A DNA stretch of 57,805 nt from Bacteroidales bacterium. GTDB lineage: Bacteria; Bacteroidota; Bacteroidia; Bacteroidales; Bacteroidaceae. The stretch spans positions 1 to 57,805 of the forward strand of contig JALEZQ010000058.1 in NCBI GenBank assembly GCA_022772475.1, written 5' to 3'. Positions 253 through 53,812 of the stretch are shown piece by piece (position 1 is the stretch's first letter; each line of letters opens with the position of its first letter). The position numbers and the translations under genes are program-made. The notes beneath the pieces were generated by a model. That model worked only from the letters and a program-made list of their open reading frames with translations, was not told where the DNA came from and did not search any database.

Positions 253-346
253 CTAGCTGTTCTAGATTTTCTAGCTGTCCTAGATTTTCTAGATATTCTA
301 GAACAGCTAGAACTGCTAGAAGAGCCGGATTTGCCGGAAGAGCCGG
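253..346. repeat. 9-bp-period CTAG/CCGG repeat, locus 1
   Basis: Eleven consecutive palindromic tetranucleotides occur at exactly 9-base spacing: CTAG at 253, 262, 271, 280, 289, 298, 307 and 316, then CCGG at 325, 334 and 343. The 5-base spacers between cores vary. The array lies between the leftward promoter at 78-109 and the terminator at 368-409. Loci at 17437-17512 and 32531-32606 share the same period and a CCGG core. Confidence 0.9.
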
Positions 347-434: not shown

Positions 435-1823
435 TCAGAGAGGGATGGTCATGCCGAAGGAGACGTTGGCATTGGCCTGATTGAGGGGGATGAACTCCTT
501 GGATACCTTGCCGAGGAAGCGGTCGGAGGCGATGTAGAAGTTAAAGTGCTTGGCCTTGAGGCTCATGGCGCCACCCGTGGTCCAGCCGGTGGTACCGACA
601 GCGGTATTGAGGGAGAGTTCGAACCAGTTGAGGGGGTTGACGGTGACGGCGAACATACCCTGGTGGTGGGAATAGATACCGTTGAGGCGGCCGGTATAGA
701 GGGCACCGAAGCGCAGGCGGCGATAGACGGGGAGGGTGTATTCGGCGCCGACGTTGATAGTGGCGGCGAGGGTCTGCGACTTACTGCCTTCGCCATCTTC
801 GTAAACGGAGAACATCTCTTCCAGGTCGTCGCCAAGGCTCTCAAACTGATCGCCGAGTTTCTGGTTGCCATGGTCACTGGCCACATAGATGTCGGTGAAG
901 CCGTCGAAGGTATAGTCGCCCATAGAGGATGCCTGGTGCACCTTCTTCCAGTTGATGGCGCCGAGGTCGGTAACGGCGGCACTCAGGGTGAGGTCTTCGT
1001 TGAGCTTAAAGGTGGCGCCGAGGTCGAGGGCCACACCGAAGCCGGGCAGGGAGAAGGCCACGTCGTCGATACCCTTGACGCGGCGACGTCCGTCGGGTGC
1101 ATTCTTGGACGGGTCTTCATACTCGAGGGTGGCGTCGAGGATAGCGGCGTTGACGCGGGCATCGCCCTGTATGCGCCACTGGTCGCCGTTCATGGTGATG
1201 TCGAGCTTATCTACGGAGAGGTCGCCATAGGCTCCGCCGACGAGGAACTTCACCTTACCGCCGACGGTCAGCCGGTCGTTGATTTTGTGGCTGTGGCCCA
1301 GGGCCAGTTCGGCGTAGTTTTGCGAGCGGACGCCGATATCCTCGAGCTGGTAGTGCTCCTTCTCGCCGGTGCACTTCATAAACTCGAAGAGCTCTTTGGG
1401 CAGGGCGATATTGGTGTTGGAGCGGAGGTTGAGTTCGATGAGGTTAACACCGCCGAATCCGCGGAAGCCTACGGAGAAGAGGTTGTAGTTGAGATAGACG
1501 TCGGTGTGCATGCGGTCGGGCATGTCGCCGAGGAACTCTGCTGCCGACACGTTGGGATTCATGAACGTGGTGTACTTGTAGCGCGGGTCGCCGTCGAGCT
1601 TATAGACGAAGTTTTTGAGACCCACATTACCCGTTGCGCCGACGTTGATTTGGCCGAAGAAGGGAATGGAGAAGTAGGCGTCGTCGAGCAGGGCGGGGTT
1701 CATCTGGTGGCGGAAGTTGTTCGTCGAGAGGAAATAGGTGGAACGCATCTCCTGAGCGCCAGCCGTGGCCGCCATTGTCGTGGCCAGCAGCGCTGTGGCC
1801 AGTTTGCGGGATATATGTTTCAT
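435..1823 (-). CDS. DUF5723-family outer-membrane protein
   Basis: A 462-residue protein with an N-terminal signal peptide ending around ATAGAQE. It is followed by a sequence rich in alternating aromatic and glycine residues typical of an outer-membrane beta-barrel, and it ends in a strand-like segment closing with PL. An early stretch reading MRSTYFLSTN-x-HQMNPAL resembles the DUF5723 family of Bacteroidetes, whose members are predicted porin-like barrels of unknown cargo. It starts 61 bases after the upstream lipoprotein gene, so the two probably form an operon read from about 3860. The family assignment is from memory of family features; the precise role is unknown. Confidence 0.75.
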   Translation of the reverse strand: MKHISRKLATALLATTMAATAGAQEMRSTYFLSTNNFRHQMNPALLDDAYFSIPFFGQINVGATGNVGLKNFVYKLDGDPRYKYTTFMNPNVSAAEFLGDMPDRMHTDVYLNYNLFSVGFRGFGGVNLIELNLRSNTNIALPKELFEFMKCTGEKEHYQLEDIGVRSQNYAELALGHSHKINDRLTVGGKVKFLVGGAYGDLSVDKLDITMNGDQWRIQGDARVNAAILDATLEYEDPSKNAPDGRRRVKGIDDVAFSLPGFGVALDLGATFKLNEDLTLSAAVTDLGAINWKKVHQASSMGDYTFDGFTDIYVASDHGNQKLGDQFESLGDDLEEMFSVYEDGEGSKSQTLAATINVGAEYTLPVYRRLRFGALYTGRLNGIYSHHQGMFAVTVNPLNWFELSLNTAVGTTGWTTGGAMSLKAKHFNFYIASDRFLGKVSKEFIPLNQANANVSFGMTIPL

Positions 1824-8578: not shown

Positions 8579-8630
8579 CACCTTTCCGTCGGATAGACGC
8601 AAAATACAGACACGTTTAACATTTCTTAGG

Positions 8631-8754
8631 CTTAGTAGGGCCATGTCCATTGACATGGCACCGGGGCGCAGCTTAGTAGGACCATGTCCATTGACATGGC
8701 ACCGGGGCGCAGCTTAGTAGGACCATGTCCATTGACATGGCACCAGGGGCGCAG
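8631..8754. repeat. Three tandem 41-bp units with a palindromic core
   Basis: Units begin at 8631, 8672 and 8713 with CTTAGTAGG and end in GGGGCGCAG. Each contains CCATGTCCATTGACATGG, a perfect 7-base inverted repeat (CCATGTC/GACATGG) around CATT. The third unit has one extra base. They are nearly identical and lie in a 732-base gap with no gene. The fixed unit with no variable spacer is unlike a CRISPR array. Confidence 0.9.
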
Positions 8755-8779
8755 CTTTTATGTAGTAGTGGCATGTCCA

Positions 8780-9024
8780 TTGACGTGCCACTGGCGGCGC
8801 AGCCGCGTTTTTTCGGCAAAGAATAGGTGTCGCGGCCGACGCCGCGACGCGTGCTGAGTGCCACGTCAATGGACATGGCACTACTACGCGGCCTTACCCA
8901 TTGACGTGCCACTCGCGGCGCAGCCGCGTTTTTTTTGCGGCAAAGAATAGGTGTCGCGGCCGACGCCGCGACGCGTGCTGAGTGCCACGTCAATGGACAT
9001 GGCACTACTACGCGGCCTCACCCA
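8780..9024. repeat. Two tandem units of about 122 bp with the same GTCCATTGAC core
   Basis: Copies at 8780-8900 and 8901-9024 differ mainly by a few bases in a T-run; a third copy starts at 9025 but is cut short. Each contains GTCGCGG...CCGCGAC inverted arms and the core of the neighbouring 41-bp units, here in reverse orientation (CACGTCAATGGACATGG). The core also precedes the block at 8771-8790 in forward orientation. This looks like amplification of a small mobile or hairpin-forming unit. Confidence 0.9.
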
Positions 9025-9031
9025 TTGACGT

Positions 9032-9064
9032 GCCACCACTATGCCACCACTATGCCACCACTAT
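9032..9064. repeat. 11-bp tandem repeat, three copies
   Basis: GCCACCACTAT is repeated three times in direct succession at the right edge of the larger repeat array. It appears to be an expansion of the TGCCAC end of the preceding unit. Confidence 0.85.
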
Positions 9065-15006: not shown

Positions 15007-17388
15007 TCAGAAGTGGAGGTTCAGGTCGATGCCCACGGAAGCGGGGTCGGCATACTGTGCGAAGCGGTTGCCCATGCTCTCGAACGAGAAGGTGGCCATG
15101 CGCGTGTCGGTCAGGTTCTTTGCCCACAGGGTGATGTCCACGTTTCCGGGCAGTTCGACGCCGAGGCGTGCATCGAGTTGTGCGGCGAAGGGCTGGCTGA
15201 AGGTGTTGGCCTCGTCCCACCATATCTGTCCGGCGCCGGCCACGTTGGCCGCCAGGGTGACGGCGTGGATGGCCTTGCTGCTGATGGGCTGACGCCAGGC
15301 GGCGCTCAGGCCCATGGTGTGGCTCGGGGCGAAGGGCACATGGTTGTCTTTGTAGGAAATGTCGCCAAGGTCGTAGCGGGTGAATACGGCATGGGTGAAG
15401 CCATAGTTGCCGCCGAGCGTCAGGCGGTTGTCAAAGAGGATGGCGCGCAGGGCCAGTTCGCCGCCGCAGGAGCGTGTGCGTCCGGCGTTGACCATGCGGC
15501 GACCCATGCCGCTGCGGGCAAACTGTGCCAGCTGCTGGTCTTTGGTGAGCATACAGAACAGGGTGTAGTCGGCGCGCAGGGCACGGTCGAAGAAGTAGAG
15601 GTGGCCGCCCATCTCAAAGTTCCACGACTGCTCGGGCTTGTAGGCCAGATGGTTGATGTCGGCTGCCTCGGGCGTGTTGGGGTCGATGCTCTGCGTCAGT
15701 CCGGCGATGGCGAGTTCTTTCACCTCCTGTGGCATAACGGGCATGGCCTGGATGGTGGCGATGCTGTAGTCCTTGACGCCGAGCATGATGTCGCGGCGCA
15801 GTTCGGACTGCGACAGGTCCGAGTAGCTCTGGATGTTGTAGCCGCCCGAGCGGTAGCCCTTCGACACCGCCAGATAGACGTTGCCGCGGCCGCTGCGGTG
15901 GTTATACTGCAGCGCCACCTTGGGGAGCACCTGCCAGGTGTCGTCCGACAGGTGGCCGTTCACCATCGCCTTGGGGGTGAGCACCGTGTTGACGCCAAAC
16001 TGCGGCATGGCGAAGGTGCATTCGCTGCCGTAATCTACGCCCGACTGCATGCGGAGCGTCGTGTGCGTATAGTCGAGGCGCACGCCCGCTGTGGCCGAGA
16101 GGCCGTGGCCGAGGTCGAACGTCGATTGGTGGAAGAGCGCCGCGTTGACCAGCGGTGTAGAGAAGCGCGAGCCCAACTGCATCTCGTTGGACGTGAAGGC
16201 CAGCGACATGGGCGGGTTTTTCGGCAGGACGGCGGCAAACATGCCGTTGAGGAAGGCCATGCCGTCGGTGTGGAACGTCACGGGGCACAGCGTGCGCATC
16301 TGCTGCACGGAGGCAAAGGCACCCGTCGTCCATTTCCACTGGCGGCCGGGCAGACTCTTGAGCACCAGTTCTTCGCTAAGCGTGTTGCTGCGCTGGCGCT
16401 GCGTGAGCGAGAAGATGTCGGCGTGGACAAAGTCTTGGTCGATGAAATAGCGGTCGCGCAGGTACTGCCATGCCGTAATCGACGAGAGGATGAAGTGGGG
16501 CGTCTGCCATTCCACGCCGGCGCTCGTCGTGGCCAGTTCGCGGCGGTAGCGGCTCTGGCGGTTTTGTGCGATACGTCCCGAGTCGGCACGGTAGGCGGGG
16601 CTCGACGGCTTCGTCAGGTAGTAAGGACAGGCCTTCTCGTCGCTATATTCGTAGGTAGCCGTCAGGTCAGCGCGCAGATGGCTCGAGGGTCGCCATGCCA
16701 GGCGCACCTTACCGCCGGCGGCCTCGCTGCCATCGGCCTTGCTGCCGCTGTGGGCATTGCGGCGGAAGCCGTTCTCGCCCTCGTAGAATCCGCCGACGCT
16801 CATCGCCACGCGGCTCGAGGGGTGCAGGTAGGTCACGGCGCGCACGGCGCGGCCGCCGTTGGGCACAGAGCCGGACAGGCTCACGTCCGTCCCCGTATGG
16901 CTGAAGGGGTCTGCCGTGAACACGCGCACCAGGCCGCCCATTGAGTTGCGACCGTAGAGCGTGCCCTGCGGACCGCGCAGCACATCGACGCGGGCAATGT
17001 CGAGGAAGGCGAAGTCGTAGGCCGACTTGTCCATGACGGGGACGTTATCGACGTACAGGCCCACCGCCGGCGTATTGATGCGCGAACCGATGCCGCGGAT
17101 ATACACCGCTGACGTTTGGCGCGAGCCGTAGTCGGGCATGAAGTAGTTGGGGGTGAAGGTCGAGATGTCCTTGATGTCGTCGGCGCCCATATTGGTCAGC
17201 GTCGTTCGGTCGAAGATGGAGATGGAGATGGGTTGCTGGCGGAACGTCATGGTCTCTTTCGGCGAGGCCACGACGATGGCCTCCTCCATGTCGTAGTTGC
17301 GCAGCGTGTCGGCGGGTGTCGCCGTGGCCATGGCCGGCATGGCAGCCAGCCATGCTGCTGCAGGCAGGATGGGGGTTTTTTTTCTCAT
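15007..17388 (-). CDS. TonB-dependent outer-membrane receptor
   Basis: A 793-residue receptor. After a signal peptide the plug domain is clear: ISIFDRTTLTNMGADDIKD, VYIRGIGSR, PAVGLYVDNVPV and the hallmark VDVLRGPQGTLYGRNSMGG. The remaining roughly 600 residues form the 22-strand barrel and end in an aromatic (LNLHF). It imports a scarce ligand using TonB energy. There is no SusD partner and no carboxypeptidase-like N-terminal domain, so it is not a glycan-type SusC; iron complexes, vitamins or small ligands are more likely. The frame stays open upstream to 18135, but MRKKTPILP at 17388 opens the signal peptide and is taken as the start. Confidence 0.9.
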   Translation of the reverse strand: MRKKTPILPAAAWLAAMPAMATATPADTLRNYDMEEAIVVASPKETMTFRQQPISISIFDRTTLTNMGADDIKDISTFTPNYFMPDYGSRQTSAVYIRGIGSRINTPAVGLYVDNVPVMDKSAYDFAFLDIARVDVLRGPQGTLYGRNSMGGLVRVFTADPFSHTGTDVSLSGSVPNGGRAVRAVTYLHPSSRVAMSVGGFYEGENGFRRNAHSGSKADGSEAAGGKVRLAWRPSSHLRADLTATYEYSDEKACPYYLTKPSSPAYRADSGRIAQNRQSRYRRELATTSAGVEWQTPHFILSSITAWQYLRDRYFIDQDFVHADIFSLTQRQRSNTLSEELVLKSLPGRQWKWTTGAFASVQQMRTLCPVTFHTDGMAFLNGMFAAVLPKNPPMSLAFTSNEMQLGSRFSTPLVNAALFHQSTFDLGHGLSATAGVRLDYTHTTLRMQSGVDYGSECTFAMPQFGVNTVLTPKAMVNGHLSDDTWQVLPKVALQYNHRSGRGNVYLAVSKGYRSGGYNIQSYSDLSQSELRRDIMLGVKDYSIATIQAMPVMPQEVKELAIAGLTQSIDPNTPEAADINHLAYKPEQSWNFEMGGHLYFFDRALRADYTLFCMLTKDQQLAQFARSGMGRRMVNAGRTRSCGGELALRAILFDNRLTLGGNYGFTHAVFTRYDLGDISYKDNHVPFAPSHTMGLSAAWRQPISSKAIHAVTLAANVAGAGQIWWDEANTFSQPFAAQLDARLGVELPGNVDITLWAKNLTDTRMATFSFESMGNRFAQYADPASVGIDLNLHF

Positions 17389-17436: not shown

Positions 17437-17512
17437 CCGGAATGCCCGGGCCTTCCGGAGGACCCGGAATCTCCGGAAATTCCGGAAAACCCGGAAAACC
17501 CGGGACGTCCGG
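17437..17512. repeat. 9-bp-period CCGG repeat, locus 2
   Basis: CCGG occurs at 17437, 17446, 17455, 17464, 17473, 17482, 17491, 17500 and 17509: nine cores at exactly 9-base spacing. It fills the gap between the stop of the HAD gene (17529) and the receptor start (17388), so it lies inside the probable leader of the receptor mRNA. Confidence 0.9.
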
Positions 17513-17528: not shown

Positions 17529-18296
17529 TCAGGCGCCTCGGCTCAGTATGGCGTCGATGCCGCCGGCCAGCAGCGTCATCGAGGGGAAAAGCAGGTCGGC
17601 GCCGAGGCTTGTTAGGGCGCTGTCGGGCAGAGGGCCCGTGTTGACGGCGATGGTCAGGATGCCTGCCGCCACGCCCGCCGTGACGCCCAGCGGGGCGTTC
17701 TCGACGACGATGGCTTCGTGGGGTTTGAGCCCCGTCTTTTCCAGGGCGCAGAGGTAGGGCTCGGGGTTGGGCTTGCCCTGCTTGACGTCCTTGCTCGAGA
17801 CGATGCGCTCGGGGGCGAAGTAACCGGGATAGCCCGTCTGCAGGCGCTCCAGCAGCGACTGCTGGCCGCTGCCCGTGACGACGCAGATGGTGCGGCCGGC
17901 CGCCTTGACGCGGGCCAGCACCATGTCGGCGCCCTCCATCTTGCCCGCCGTTGGGCAGGCGTTGAACAGGCGGCACTTCTCGGCATATATTTGCTCTATC
18001 TCGGCCTCGGTGGCGGGGCGTCCATACCGGCGCTGCATGAGGATGTTGATGGTGTCGGCACCGGTGCGTCCCTCGTGCATATACGCCTCCTCGGGCGTCA
18101 TGTCCAGGTGGAAGGTTTGGGCCGTCTGCACCCACGACGTGGCGTGGTTGGGCATGGAGTTGAACAGGACACCGTCCATATCGAAGAGCACGGCGCGCGG
18201 TGCAAAACGCTCACCGCAGCGCTGCTCATAGCGATTTACGGCTTGCGCCACCTCCTCCATACTGGGGGCGGTGGCGCGCTTGGTTTCTTGGTTCAT
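17529..18296 (-). CDS. HAD-family phosphatase (beta-phosphoglucomutase-like)
   Basis: A 255-residue hydrolase. AVLFDMDGVLFNSMP is HAD motif I with the nucleophile Asp and the general-acid Asp; CVVTGSGQ is motif II; the Lys of KQGKPNPEPY is motif III; VVENAPLGVTAG is motif IV. The helical cap after motif I fits beta-phosphoglucomutase or small sugar-phosphate phosphatases. It starts in a TAATG overlap with the end of pgi, so translation is coupled and a sugar-phosphate role is likely. Exact substrate is not deducible. Confidence 0.87.
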   Translation of the reverse strand: MNQETKRATAPSMEEVAQAVNRYEQRCGERFAPRAVLFDMDGVLFNSMPNHATSWVQTAQTFHLDMTPEEAYMHEGRTGADTINILMQRRYGRPATEAEIEQIYAEKCRLFNACPTAGKMEGADMVLARVKAAGRTICVVTGSGQQSLLERLQTGYPGYFAPERIVSSKDVKQGKPNPEPYLCALEKTGLKPHEAIVVENAPLGVTAGVAAGILTIAVNTGPLPDSALTSLGADLLFPSMTLLAGGIDAILSRGA

Positions 18297-26387: not shown

Positions 26388-26785
26388 GTGTGCAATTCAC
26401 TCTTTTACGTTTGTTAACTTCGAGAATGCCCACGAAATCGACCGTCCACCTCGGCGGCCGAAAATAACGGCAATATGGCGCGTTTGATTTTGACGTTATA
26501 TGGCGCAAACTTGAATATGTTGCGGCGCATTCGTTAAACCTTCTGAATTTCCGGCCTTCCGAGCCCGAAAACCGCCTGCTGTTAGCCGCCGAAGGGCAGG
26601 CGATTCGCGCTCCACTGTTTGGGCGACAGGAATTTCTGTCGCCCAAACAGGAAATCCTGTCGCCCAAATCGGGGGAGCATCATGCGTTTTTCGTCCTCCG
26701 CCACGCCGTTTCGCTTCTATTTGCAGCGCCGGGGCGGTTCACGTTATTGGCTGCAAAACTCACGTTATTGACCCGGTGTGCAACG
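26388..26785 (-). repeat. Dispersed non-coding element, copy A (about 398 bp)
   Basis: Read on the minus strand this stretch begins CGTTGCACAC, carries two AACGTGA boxes 21 bases apart, then three TTTGGGCGACAG arms (two direct, one inverted; a perfect 15-bp inverted repeat lies at 26615-26629 and 26636-26650). It ends TTGCACAC. The same parts in the same order and total length occur at 53415-53812. The first 170 bases align best; the second half shares shorter blocks. No gene is visible in 26259-27034 apart from flanking promoters. Confidence 0.75.
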
Positions 26786-32356: not shown

Positions 32357-33766
32357 ATGCTCCCCATCCCCGACCTTCTGCAACAGGCGCAACTGACGCC
32401 GACGGCCATGCAGGCCGACATGCTCCGCGCCGCCACCGCCACCGATGGCGCCGCCCACCTGCTGCTCCTGGCCCCCACGGGCACGGGCAAGACGCTGGCG
32501 TACCTGCTGCCCATGCTGCAGCTGCTCTGCCCGGAAAGCCCGGAACGTCCGGAAAGCCCGGAATATCCGGAGTCTCCGGAAAATCCGGAAAATCCGGAAC
32601 GTCCGGCCTCTCCAGCCGGCCCCGCCGCCATCATCGTCGTGCCCACCCGCGAACTGGCCCTTCAGGCCGACGAGATGCTCGCGCGCCTCAAGAGCGGCGT
32701 CAAGAGCCGGTGTCTCTATGGCGGACGCCCCACGATGGACGAGCACCGGCGCCTGCGCGAGGTGCGCCCGCAGGTGGTCTTCGCCACGCCGGGACGCCTC
32801 AACGACCACCTCGACAAGGGCAACATCGCCGCCTCGGCCGTGCGCATCCTCGTCATCGACGAGTACGACAAGTGCTTGGAGATGGGCTTCCGCGACGAGG
32901 TGACGCGCATCGCCGCCCGCCTGCCGCGCGTGGAGCACTGCTGGCTCACGTCGGCCACGGCCACCGAAGATGCCCGCCTGCTGGCGGCCCAACTGCCGGG
33001 CGGCGGCCGCCTGCAGACGCTCGACTATCTTGACGCGGACAGCCGCGCCGCCGCTCGCCGCATACGCCTGCACAGCGTGACCTCGCCCGAGCGCGACAAA
33101 TTGGAGACGCTGGGCCGCCTGCTCTCCGCCATCGGCGGTGCACCGGCCATCGTCTTCGTGGCACACCGCGAGAGCGCCGAGCGCGTGGGACGCTATCTCG
33201 ACAGCGAAGGCTTCGACTGCGTGGTCTATCACGGCGGCATGGAACAGGAACGGCGCGAGAAGGCTTTGGGGAAATTCCGCGGCGGCTGCGCCAACGTCAT
33301 GGTTTCGACGGACATCGCCGCTCGCGGCCTCGACATCCCCGAGGTGGAGGCCGTGGTACACTATCACCTGCCCGACAGCGAGGCTACCTTCACCCACCGC
33401 ATCGGCCGCTCGGCACGCTGGGAGGCCACGGGCACGGCCTACCTCATCCTCGGCCCCGACGAGACGCTGCCGCCCTACGCCGCCGACGCCACGCCCTTTG
33501 CTGTGGGCCGCACGCCCGTCCGCCCCACACCCTGCCGCATGGCGGCGCTCTATATCGGCCGCGGCCGGAAGGAGAAGGTGTCGCGTGCCGACGTCGTCGG
33601 CTTCCTCTGCAAACAGGGCGCACTGACCGCCGCCGACATCGGCCGCATCGACCTCGCCGACCACCACGTCATCGTCAGCCTGCGCCGCGAATGCCTCGCC
33701 GCCGTCATCCGCCGTGTGGCCGGCCAGAAGATAAAAGGTCTCAAGACGCACTACCTGCCGGCATAA
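32357..33766 (+). CDS. DEAD-box-type ATP-dependent RNA helicase
   Basis: A 469-residue SF2 helicase. Motif I is APTGTGKT near residue 38, Ia VVPTRELALQ, Ib TPGRL, motif II DEYDK near 167 (not DEAD), III SAT near 200 and VI HRIGRSAR near 347. The Q-motif is weak. Between motifs I and Ia, residues about 57-85 are a run of PES/PER/PEN triplets coded by the 9-bp CCGG repeat, an insertion not expected in the family. It probably unwinds structured RNA in ribosome assembly or decay. It ends 26 bases inside the convergent gene at 33741-34880. Confidence 0.87.
   Translation: MLPIPDLLQQAQLTPTAMQADMLRAATATDGAAHLLLLAPTGTGKTLAYLLPMLQLLCPESPERPESPEYPESPENPENPERPASPAGPAAIIVVPTRELALQADEMLARLKSGVKSRCLYGGRPTMDEHRRLREVRPQVVFATPGRLNDHLDKGNIAASAVRILVIDEYDKCLEMGFRDEVTRIAARLPRVEHCWLTSATATEDARLLAAQLPGGGRLQTLDYLDADSRAAARRIRLHSVTSPERDKLETLGRLLSAIGGAPAIVFVAHRESAERVGRYLDSEGFDCVVYHGGMEQERREKALGKFRGGCANVMVSTDIAARGLDIPEVEAVVHYHLPDSEATFTHRIGRSARWEATGTAYLILGPDETLPPYAADATPFAVGRTPVRPTPCRMAALYIGRGRKEKVSRADVVGFLCKQGALTAADIGRIDLADHHVIVSLRRECLAAVIRRVAGQKIKGLKTHYLPA
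32531..32606. repeat. 9-bp-period CCGG repeat, locus 3, inside the helicase gene
   Basis: CCGG occurs at 32531, 32540, 32549, 32558, 32567, 32576, 32585, 32594 and 32603, exactly 9 bases apart, in frame so that each unit adds three residues of the Pro-Glu-x type. It shares period and core with loci at 253 and 17437. Confidence 0.92.
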
Positions 33767-53414: not shown

Positions 53415-53812
53415 CGTTGCACACGCTACCCATAACGTGAGTTTTACTCCCGAAAACGTGAAGTCCCTCCGCCATACAACCGGAAGCGCAAAGGCACTGC
53501 GCCAATCCAAATCGCGCATTCGTCATCACAGTTTGGGCGACAGAATTTTCTGTTTGGGCGACAGAAAATCCTGTCGCCCAAACTCTATCCGTCCAAACGC
53601 CCCCTCTTCACCCCGCCCGTGAGGGCGTTTTCCGCCCGTCAAGCGCAGAATTTTTAATAGATTTAACCAAAGCGCAGTGCTTGTATTAAGTTATTGTACA
53701 AACCTGACAAAATAAGCCGCCCCATGCTTGCGTTTTTTCCGTCCTCGGGAATAGTTGCCGGCTTTCGCGCCCCCTCTCGAGGTTAACGAGTGTTAACGAC
53801 TGCATTGCACAC
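53415..53812 (+). repeat. Dispersed non-coding element, copy B (about 398 bp)
   Basis: Begins CGTTGCACAC, has AACGTGA boxes 21 bases apart, then TTTGGGCGACAG at 53532-53543 and 53553-53564 with an inverted copy at 53571-53582, and ends TTGCACAC at 53812. It shares order, spacing and length with copy A at 26388-26785 on the other strand. It lies between ispF and ppdK; no gene is seen in 53354-53995. Confidence 0.75.

Follow-up and report, generated by a model that had tools for sequence, protein, structure and literature searches.

Three arrays with a 9-bp period

The window (the whole stretch of 57,805 nucleotides analyzed here) contains three arrays built from a 9-bp unit, in which a palindromic core, CCGG or CTAG, is followed by five variable bases. 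Their positions, core counts, and core types agree with the initial annotation of this DNA, and the 9-bp steps are exact, with zero slip (Table 1). Array 1 lies 88 bp beyond the 3' end of the neighboring DUF5723 gene. Array 2 starts 16 bp past the stop codon of the diphosphatase gene and ends 96 bp before the start of the TonB-dependent receptor gene. Array 3 encodes PESPERPESPEYPESPENPENPERP, an insertion between helicase motifs I and Ia. A similar insert is absent at the 18 orthologous helicase loci shown (40-63% identity; L052 was unmatched by the script). In the helicase homologue of genome G010 (L060), the same loop holds another insert that keeps the frame and consists of CTCCCCCTTTGGGGGAG-like repeats in inverted orientation.

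Table 1. Arrays and neighboring genes in the window
Feature	Coordinates	Strand	Description
Array 1	253..346	.	11 cores at 9 bp: 8 CTAG, then 3 CCGG; intergenic
Gene with 3' end facing array 1	435..1775	-	DUF5723 protein
Gene downstream of array 2	15007..17340	-	TonB-dependent receptor
Array 2	17437..17512	.	9 CCGG cores at 9 bp; gap between two minus-strand genes
Gene upstream (transcription sense) of array 2	17529..18296	-	HAD-type inorganic diphosphatase
Array 3 host gene	32357..33766	+	DEAD/Helicase_C/DbpA RNA helicase, 469 aa
Array 3	32531..32606	+	9 CCGG cores at 9 bp; in frame inside the DEAD-box helicase gene

Tandem repeats of other kinds also occur in the window. Those at 26611-26671 and 53531-53574 have a 21-bp period and consist of ACAGGAAATCCTGTCGCCCAA and a similar unit, the first of the two having about ten partial matches across the sister genome G071. 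At 8630-9064, repeats of 41 bp (3.1 copies), 124 bp (2.1 copies), and 11 bp (3.1 copies) adjoin each other.

Specificity of the period and of the cores

Chance is excluded as the origin of the window arrays. Searches for four successive cores at 9-bp spacing gave 12 matches for CCGG (CCGGx4) and 5 for CTAG (CTAGx4), compared to none in 100 dinucleotide shuffles for each, and the check proposed in the initial annotation, for runs of at least six CYRG tetranucleotides at this spacing, returned three runs in the window and none in 100 further shuffles. The whole source genome (G000) contains 74 CCGGx4 and 46 CTAGx4 places, counted as overlapping matches rather than arrays, with no place for either reversed-pattern control. 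Since the assembly (2.38 Mb, 104 contigs) is 87% complete, these counts are minima. When four or more exact cores are required, the stretches of the source genome that were examined contain 25 arrays, and 31 after the addition of six small stretches. The three arrays thus belong to a family, as had been proposed, and the period, said there to be unvarying, holds genome-wide. The change of core type described for array 1 recurs: the array at L034:710 also switches between CTAG and CCGG part-way, and core types differ between arrays as well.

To what extent other periods and other words behave in this way was assessed in the source genome and in its sister species G071. In a G071 sample of 1.02 Mb (60 contigs, excluding five contigs chosen earlier for their arrays), runs of at least five CYRG at periods from 5 to 21 were found at period 9 (6 runs), 18 (4), and 12 (1) and at no others. 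With at least four CYRG, they were found at periods 9 (6 runs), 18 (8), 21 (2), and 12, 15, and 20 (1 each). The reversed control GRYC, also with at least four, yielded a total of eight runs, at periods 15 (3), 18 (2), and 6, 9, and 21 (1 each). A scan of all tetranucleotides at periods from 5 to 30 was run on 397 kb of the source genome, a sample mostly selected for carrying arrays and therefore biased; it gave 50 runs at period 9, a further 26 at 18, and 4 at 27, among which the CCGG and CTAG registers predominate. Seven other palindromes (GGCC, GCGC, CGCG, TCGA, CATG, TGCA, and GATC) form no period-9 run of four or more in either the 397 kb of the source genome or the 1.02 Mb of G071, and ACGT forms none in the former and two in the latter. 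Pairs at a distance of 9 bp number 121 for GGCC, 117 for CCGG, and 51 for CTAG, the means over distances being 53.9, 20.7, and 4.7, respectively.

Composition of the units

When the units are oriented along the transcript or coding strand, A follows the core in 141 of 172, and the position just ahead of the next core holds T in 116 and never A (0 of 172); the orientation of the array at L021 is arbitrary in this count. The commonest form of the unit is accordingly TCYRGA plus three free bases. After folding of the two strands, the 203 units of the 31 arrays contain 53 distinct spacers, the most frequent being AAAAT, AATCT, AAAGC, AACAT, AAAAC, and AACAG. The observation in the initial annotation that spacers differ between units and between loci is borne out by this diversity, with the qualification that a spacer is not independent of its neighbors: 2.81 of 5 positions match within arrays versus 2.23 of 5 between arrays. 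Relative to within-array shuffles, the similarity is in excess at lag 2 (p 0.006), marginal at lag 1 (0.064), and not significant at lag 3 (0.43).

Copying of ordered blocks between loci was considered and set aside, as the support for it is weak. Two-spacer blocks common to several loci number 25, versus 16.9 in within-array shuffles, and 110 of 2000 shuffles reach the observed number; for three-spacer blocks, 534 of 2000 do.

Placement in gaps and genes

The surroundings of the arrays were described with a home-made codon-usage gene caller, which missed the gene around L021. By these calls, 17 of the 25 arrays, including three that overlap a gene end, lie outside genes and 7 lie deep inside genes, the L021 array being a probable eighth. 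Twelve of the arrays outside genes sit between co-oriented genes, and in 10 of these 12 the upstream stop codon is nearer than the downstream start codon. Such a position just past stop codons suggests either an effect on the local transcription unit or merely a place where arrays are tolerated. At L022:7104 and L027:3942, the first CTAG core contains the TAG stop of the preceding gene, according to the same home-made calls.

The nearness of the upstream stop and the self-complementarity of the cores are both compatible with RNA elements, the transcribed arrays folding into hairpins that act as terminators or 3'-end stabilizers. For the source genome, we consider this very improbable in view of the folding calculations. 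The 14 arrays taken as intergenic in this test (with L021, probably coding and of arbitrary orientation, counted among them) sum to -436.5 kcal/mol compared to -454.8 kcal/mol for shuffled spacers, and 139 of 150 spacer shuffles are at least as stable; for the 7 coding arrays, this applies to 79 of 150. A TTTT within 15 bases downstream is found in none of the 18 arrays counted as intergenic, and seven or eight arrays lie inside genes. Intrinsic terminator hairpins in particular were rejected, because the spacers are not complementary beyond shuffles and none of the 18 arrays is followed by a T-run. The flank downstream of the intergenic arrays is C-rich; as coding arrays show this as well (C fractions of 0.44 and 0.47), it was dismissed as a special intergenic feature.

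All seven in-gene arrays are of the CCGG type and are read in the same frame, CCG-GNN-NNN, to give mostly Pro-Glu/Asp/Ala-x in linkers or tails of the encoded proteins. The hosts are the DEAD-box helicase, FtsH (C-terminal tail), GldL/PorL, a DUF349 protein, an APH-RapZ fusion (between the domains), a GYF_2 protein, and a DUF6359 protein. A gene of the GldL type is indicative of the Bacteroidota. This single frame, into which the L021 array also fits, would be expected if the family were a Pro-Glu-x linker repeat selected at the protein level and the intergenic arrays were decayed genes. The CTAG arrays largely refute such an origin, to which we assign hardly any weight: of the 25 arrays, 9 have CTAG or mixed cores, and all 9 lie outside the called genes, though two overlap a stop codon. 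The 12 arrays in gaps between co-oriented genes speak against it as well, and so do the codons. Coding arrays use GAA 37 times and GAG once, where the genome usage is 35.5:64.5, and GAT 7 times and GAC twice, where it is 11:89 (proline is CCG in 63 of 63 cases, which is partly forced by the search pattern). Since the codons of the arrays run opposite to genome usage, codon choice does not set their sequence.

Change of the arrays between sister species

The sister species G071 is 92-96% identical to the source genome over most long matches and 82-90% over some. Both flanks could be located in G071 for 12 of the 25 source arrays, and array 1 is a thirteenth, placed by the array itself and one flank; within the 1.13 Mb of G071 examined, no counterpart was found for the other 12. 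The counterpart of array 1 (L300:184-286) has 11 of 12 cores exact and has most units in common with it. Six of the 12 flank-matched sites carry an array in each species; the two versions are unequal in length, mostly by whole units, and their spacers differ too. Three sites (L023, L028, and L032) are without an array in G071, and at one (L021) the G071 array is degenerate. At the remaining two, array 2 and L026, the core type is swapped: the source array is CCGG, and the G071 array is CTAG or CTAG/CTGG. In the gap of array 2, the CTAG/CTGG array of G071 is made of different units, and one flank is almost unchanged between the two species right up to the array.

Seven orthologous pairs were aligned unit by unit. 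Core positions differ in 4 of 184 cases and spacer positions in 22 of 195 (Fisher p = 4e-4), a modest comparison that covers seven loci found via their cores, with unit pairs below 60% identity and units lacking a partner (15) dropped. The suggestion that the cores are special is in line with this difference. In these pairs, 54 of 55 source cores are CCGG or CTAG and one is CCTG, and 50 of 56 G071 cores are CCGG or CTAG, the other six being CCAG or CTGG, which are one transition away from either core type. The G071 array at the site of array 2 is a counter-case, with a near-constant spacer (AGATT) and a varying core (CTAG/CTGG).

The whole-unit differences between the sister species and the similarity of units within arrays imply that slippage or unequal exchange of units acts on the arrays. 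The initial annotation had argued that slippage was excluded; the greater likeness of spacers within arrays, the excess at lag 2, and the whole-unit differences do not bear this argument out. These same observations could be accounted for if the arrays were neutral or selfish minisatellites, in which the palindromes are mere annealing points for slippage or template switching, core and step being copied while the spacers drift. Neighboring cores might pair as a stem of 4 bp that closes a loop of 5 nt, and arrays would survive where they are harmless, in gaps and linkers. Gain and loss of arrays at orthologous sites fits such an origin, as do the lack of a functional theme among the linkers, tails, and gaps, the minority of species that carry arrays, and the other cores found in G004 (below). 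It leaves unexplained why arrays here are confined to CCGG and CTAG when GGCC, GCGC, and CGCG are commoner, and why unrelated loci keep a single period that is 8 bp in G440 and 9 bp in a congener. We regard a neutral origin as a serious contender that ranks close behind the protein-based explanation developed below.

Distribution across genomes and lineage-specific pitch

Five successive CCGG cores at 9-bp spacing (CCGGx5) occur in 9 of the 58 species of the genus examined, the source included, the other 49 having no match. The source genome has 54 such places, followed by G051 (47), G041 (14), G067 (12), G058 (10), G004 (7), G071 (4), and G010 and G070 (1 each). G004 also contains period-9 arrays with other cores, TCTATA or CTGAA plus a variable end (L253:15503, L254:8891, and L254:18707).

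Across the order, CTAGx4 at period 9 is found in 14 of 393 genomes, a few other families included; in three of the 14 (G146, G096, and G195), the units listed differ little or not at all and the arrays are plain repeats. Three of the 393 genomes match at period 8 (G104, a plain repeat; G302, 4 places; G440, 35 places) and two at period 10 (G302 and G168, 2 places each). Two congeners outside the family of the source differ markedly, with 35, 0, and 0 places at periods 8, 9, and 10 in G440 and 4, 68, and 2 in G302. The pitch is therefore a property of the lineage, though not an absolute one. In G440, the same period-8 CTAG array is present twice (L328 and L329), 4.7 kb apart and with nearly identical flanks, so arrays can travel within a larger duplicated piece.

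Arrays of related appearance were noted in two other families. In family f87 (G400 and G246; L246, L247, L248, L249, and L205), CTAG arrays of period 9 abut period-7 repeats of TTAGAGN or its complement. These composites have a fixed order of parts, with TTAGAGN on one side in 6 of 6 distinct sites and, in some, heptamers of the GCCAANN type on the opposite side. In family f81 (G331, G242, G138, and G398; L200-L203), the CTAG arrays of period 9 are short and more hairpin-like than those of the source, and some have reverse-complement spacers, such as TTTGA and TCAAA in L201.

A dedicated enzyme that adds or copies units of fixed length could also account for the constancy of the pitch from locus to locus, for invariant palindromic cores separated by variable spacers, for the complete switch of array type at a given site, and for the lineage-specific pitch. 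Such a ruler is used for spacers in CRISPR adaptation, and here it might be a CYRG-specific nuclease, recombinase, or transposase whose repair would leave a core plus 5 bp. We judge this unlikely: no candidate gene emerged, the spacers come largely from a small A-rich pool, and ordered blocks are only weakly common to loci. Y1 transposases are not associated with the arrays either, the Y1_Tnp domain being present in 6 of 9 array-bearing species, although in none of G051, G070, and G071, versus 22 of 49 other species. REP/BIME elements, imperfect palindromes of 20-40 bp associated with a Y1 transposase (RAYT), were discarded for this reason and because folding does not exceed that of spacer shuffles.

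Similar runs were also collected more widely. Named genomes contain at least 117 stretches of CCGGx6, many of them, by title, in GC-rich bacteria of other phyla. In 63 of 80 such loci examined, the spacers are mostly repeated; among twelve loci whose arrays were inspected, those of L127, L158, L159, and L160, from Prevotellaceae and Paludibacteraceae assemblies, are source-like, and an array in a Lentisphaerae assembly (L105) resembles those of the source genome. In viral contigs, CTAGx5 is found in at least 119 stretches at 9 bp compared to 18 at 10 bp. A simple count over 80 of the viral period-9 loci gave 65 with mostly repeated and 15 with varied spacers, and L389 is the closest in look to the source arrays among the matches listed. 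Since a period of 9 is divisible by three, these viral runs may be coding repeats. Their number implies that a CTAG run of period 9 alone is not diagnostic in a large collection.

Avoidance of CTAG

The tetranucleotide CTAG is strongly avoided in the source genome outside the arrays. In the 397-kb sample, it occurs 75 times, with 61 occurrences in runs of at least three at 9 bp, and the 14 outside runs compare to 654 expected from trinucleotides. The 1.02-Mb sample of G071 has 188, with 40 of them within runs, against 1706 expected. Three species without CCGGx5 in the genome (G015, G017, and G016) have 1, 1, and 2 CTAG in 20 kb each. Arrays as the cause of the avoidance were thus rejected, and the rarity of CTAG is a weak point for a protein that reads the cores, because array-less relatives avoid CTAG too. 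Conversely, G400 and G246 of family f87 have CTAG arrays and no strong avoidance, with 0.71 and 0.76 of the expectation outside runs.

Comparison with known repeat systems

Tandem operator boxes of ribbon-helix-helix and other repressors, such as those of MetJ, omega, and TrpR, resemble the arrays in that palindromic or quasi-palindromic boxes follow each other at a fixed pitch with looser sequence in between. There are few such operators per genome, and they lie in promoters, whereas the arrays described here number dozens and occur in gaps and in genes. TrpR operator arrays were rejected as an explanation, since TrpR yielded no homologue above the cut-off in 16 genomes, with one weak match in G246 and with the E. 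coli and B. subtilis positive controls detected; no core-binding protein was found. CRISPR arrays likewise consist of short palindromic repeats and variable spacers of constant length. Their repeats are about 20-40 bp long and their spacers longer, compared to the 4-bp cores and 5-bp spacers of the present arrays, which draw the spacers from a small internal pool and are dispersed genome-wide.

More similar are the dispersed heptamer arrays. One report (PMC4679880) describes direct repeats of the heptamer TAACTGA in Beggiatoaceae, Cyanobacteria, and some Bacteroidetes. They are patchily distributed and lie mainly between genes, close to where these start or end, with indels between two strains that are mostly whole units and no mechanism known to the author. 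A second report (PMC4692102) describes GGGNATC and GGGGAYT heptamers of Xanthomonas and Nostoc that are dispersed in gaps between aligned ORFs, near a start or less than 50 bp from a stop, and vary in unit number between relatives. The present arrays have in common with both families the dispersal over many small loci of constant period and short unit (31 arrays at 9 bp here), the tendency to sit in gaps close to gene ends (of 25 arrays, 17 are outside genes and 12 of these between co-oriented genes), and the change in unit number. Unlike the TAACTGA repeats, with their fixed, non-palindromic 7-bp unit, they have a 9-bp unit with a palindromic core, a variable spacer (53 distinct among 203), a core of either of two types, and copies that run in frame through linkers; unlike the GGGNATC heptamers, which are near-fixed in sequence and form G-quadruplexes, they have no G-run basis and their spacers vary.

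The earlier statement that no described element has this architecture is too strong in the light of these two reports, which document dispersed short-unit arrays of constant period between co-oriented genes. Among the titles and abstract openings listed for open-licence PMC texts, none describes a 9-bp or nonanucleotide family of this architecture. The closest known kind is the dispersed heptamer array, from which the present family is set apart by its period of 9 bp, a core that is palindromic and of two interchangeable types, a spacer that is free to vary, and the in-frame copies.

A protein reading the cores as a tentative explanation

The explanation that we tentatively place first is that the arrays are dispersed minisatellites formed at the level of DNA, with a sequence-specific protein reading the cores and slippage altering the number of units. 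A DNA-binding factor could place one dimer on each CYRG palindrome, side by side at a fixed pitch, and slippage and unequal exchange between units would supply new copies. Such a factor would keep the cores and the pitch while the spacers drift, and would allow a pitch of 8 bp in one species and 9 bp in a congener. There are precedents for this arrangement: the MetJ and omega repressors bind tandem boxes of 8 bp and 7 bp, respectively, as side-by-side dimers, and TrpR operators are CTAG-based, with CTAG half-sites 8 bp apart.

A core-reading protein is favored over slippage alone because the latter hardly accounts for two related palindromes, one pitch at many unrelated loci, the change of pitch between lineages, and the faster drift of the spacers. 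The swap of core type at 2 of 12 sites, the failure of other palindromes to form such runs, and the codons of the coding arrays, which run counter to genome usage, support it further. Several observations weigh against it. Some arrays occupy linkers of housekeeping proteins that have no common theme; a few arrays of other pitch exist in G302 and G168, and period-9 arrays with other cores exist in G004; and in the G071 array at the site of array 2 it is the spacer that is constant and the core that varies. With 49 of 58 species lacking CCGGx5 and 3 of 12 sites array-less in the sister species, no array is shown to be needed.

A broader and more speculative proposal, which we think has a small chance of being correct, is that the order carries a previously undescribed ruler system. 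In this system, an enzyme or a polymerizing DNA-binding protein that recognizes CYRG palindromes would build or maintain arrays throughout the genome at an exact pitch particular to each species (9 bp in the source and in several families, 8 bp in G440), and would swap whole arrays in place between CCGG and CTAG within the divergence of sister species.

Short-period dispersed arrays are known in several bacterial groups, and the present family has the advantage that the core and the spacer are separable. With a unit that divides into a constant palindrome and a free spacer, and with orthologous sites in a sister species and congeners of different pitch at hand, binding, generation, and slippage become directly testable. 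The in-gene copies illustrate how DNA-level repeats have become Pro-Glu linkers in FtsH, GldL, and other proteins. If a protein does read the cores, the arrays would be a new set of binding sites spread across the genomes of gut and rumen bacteria.
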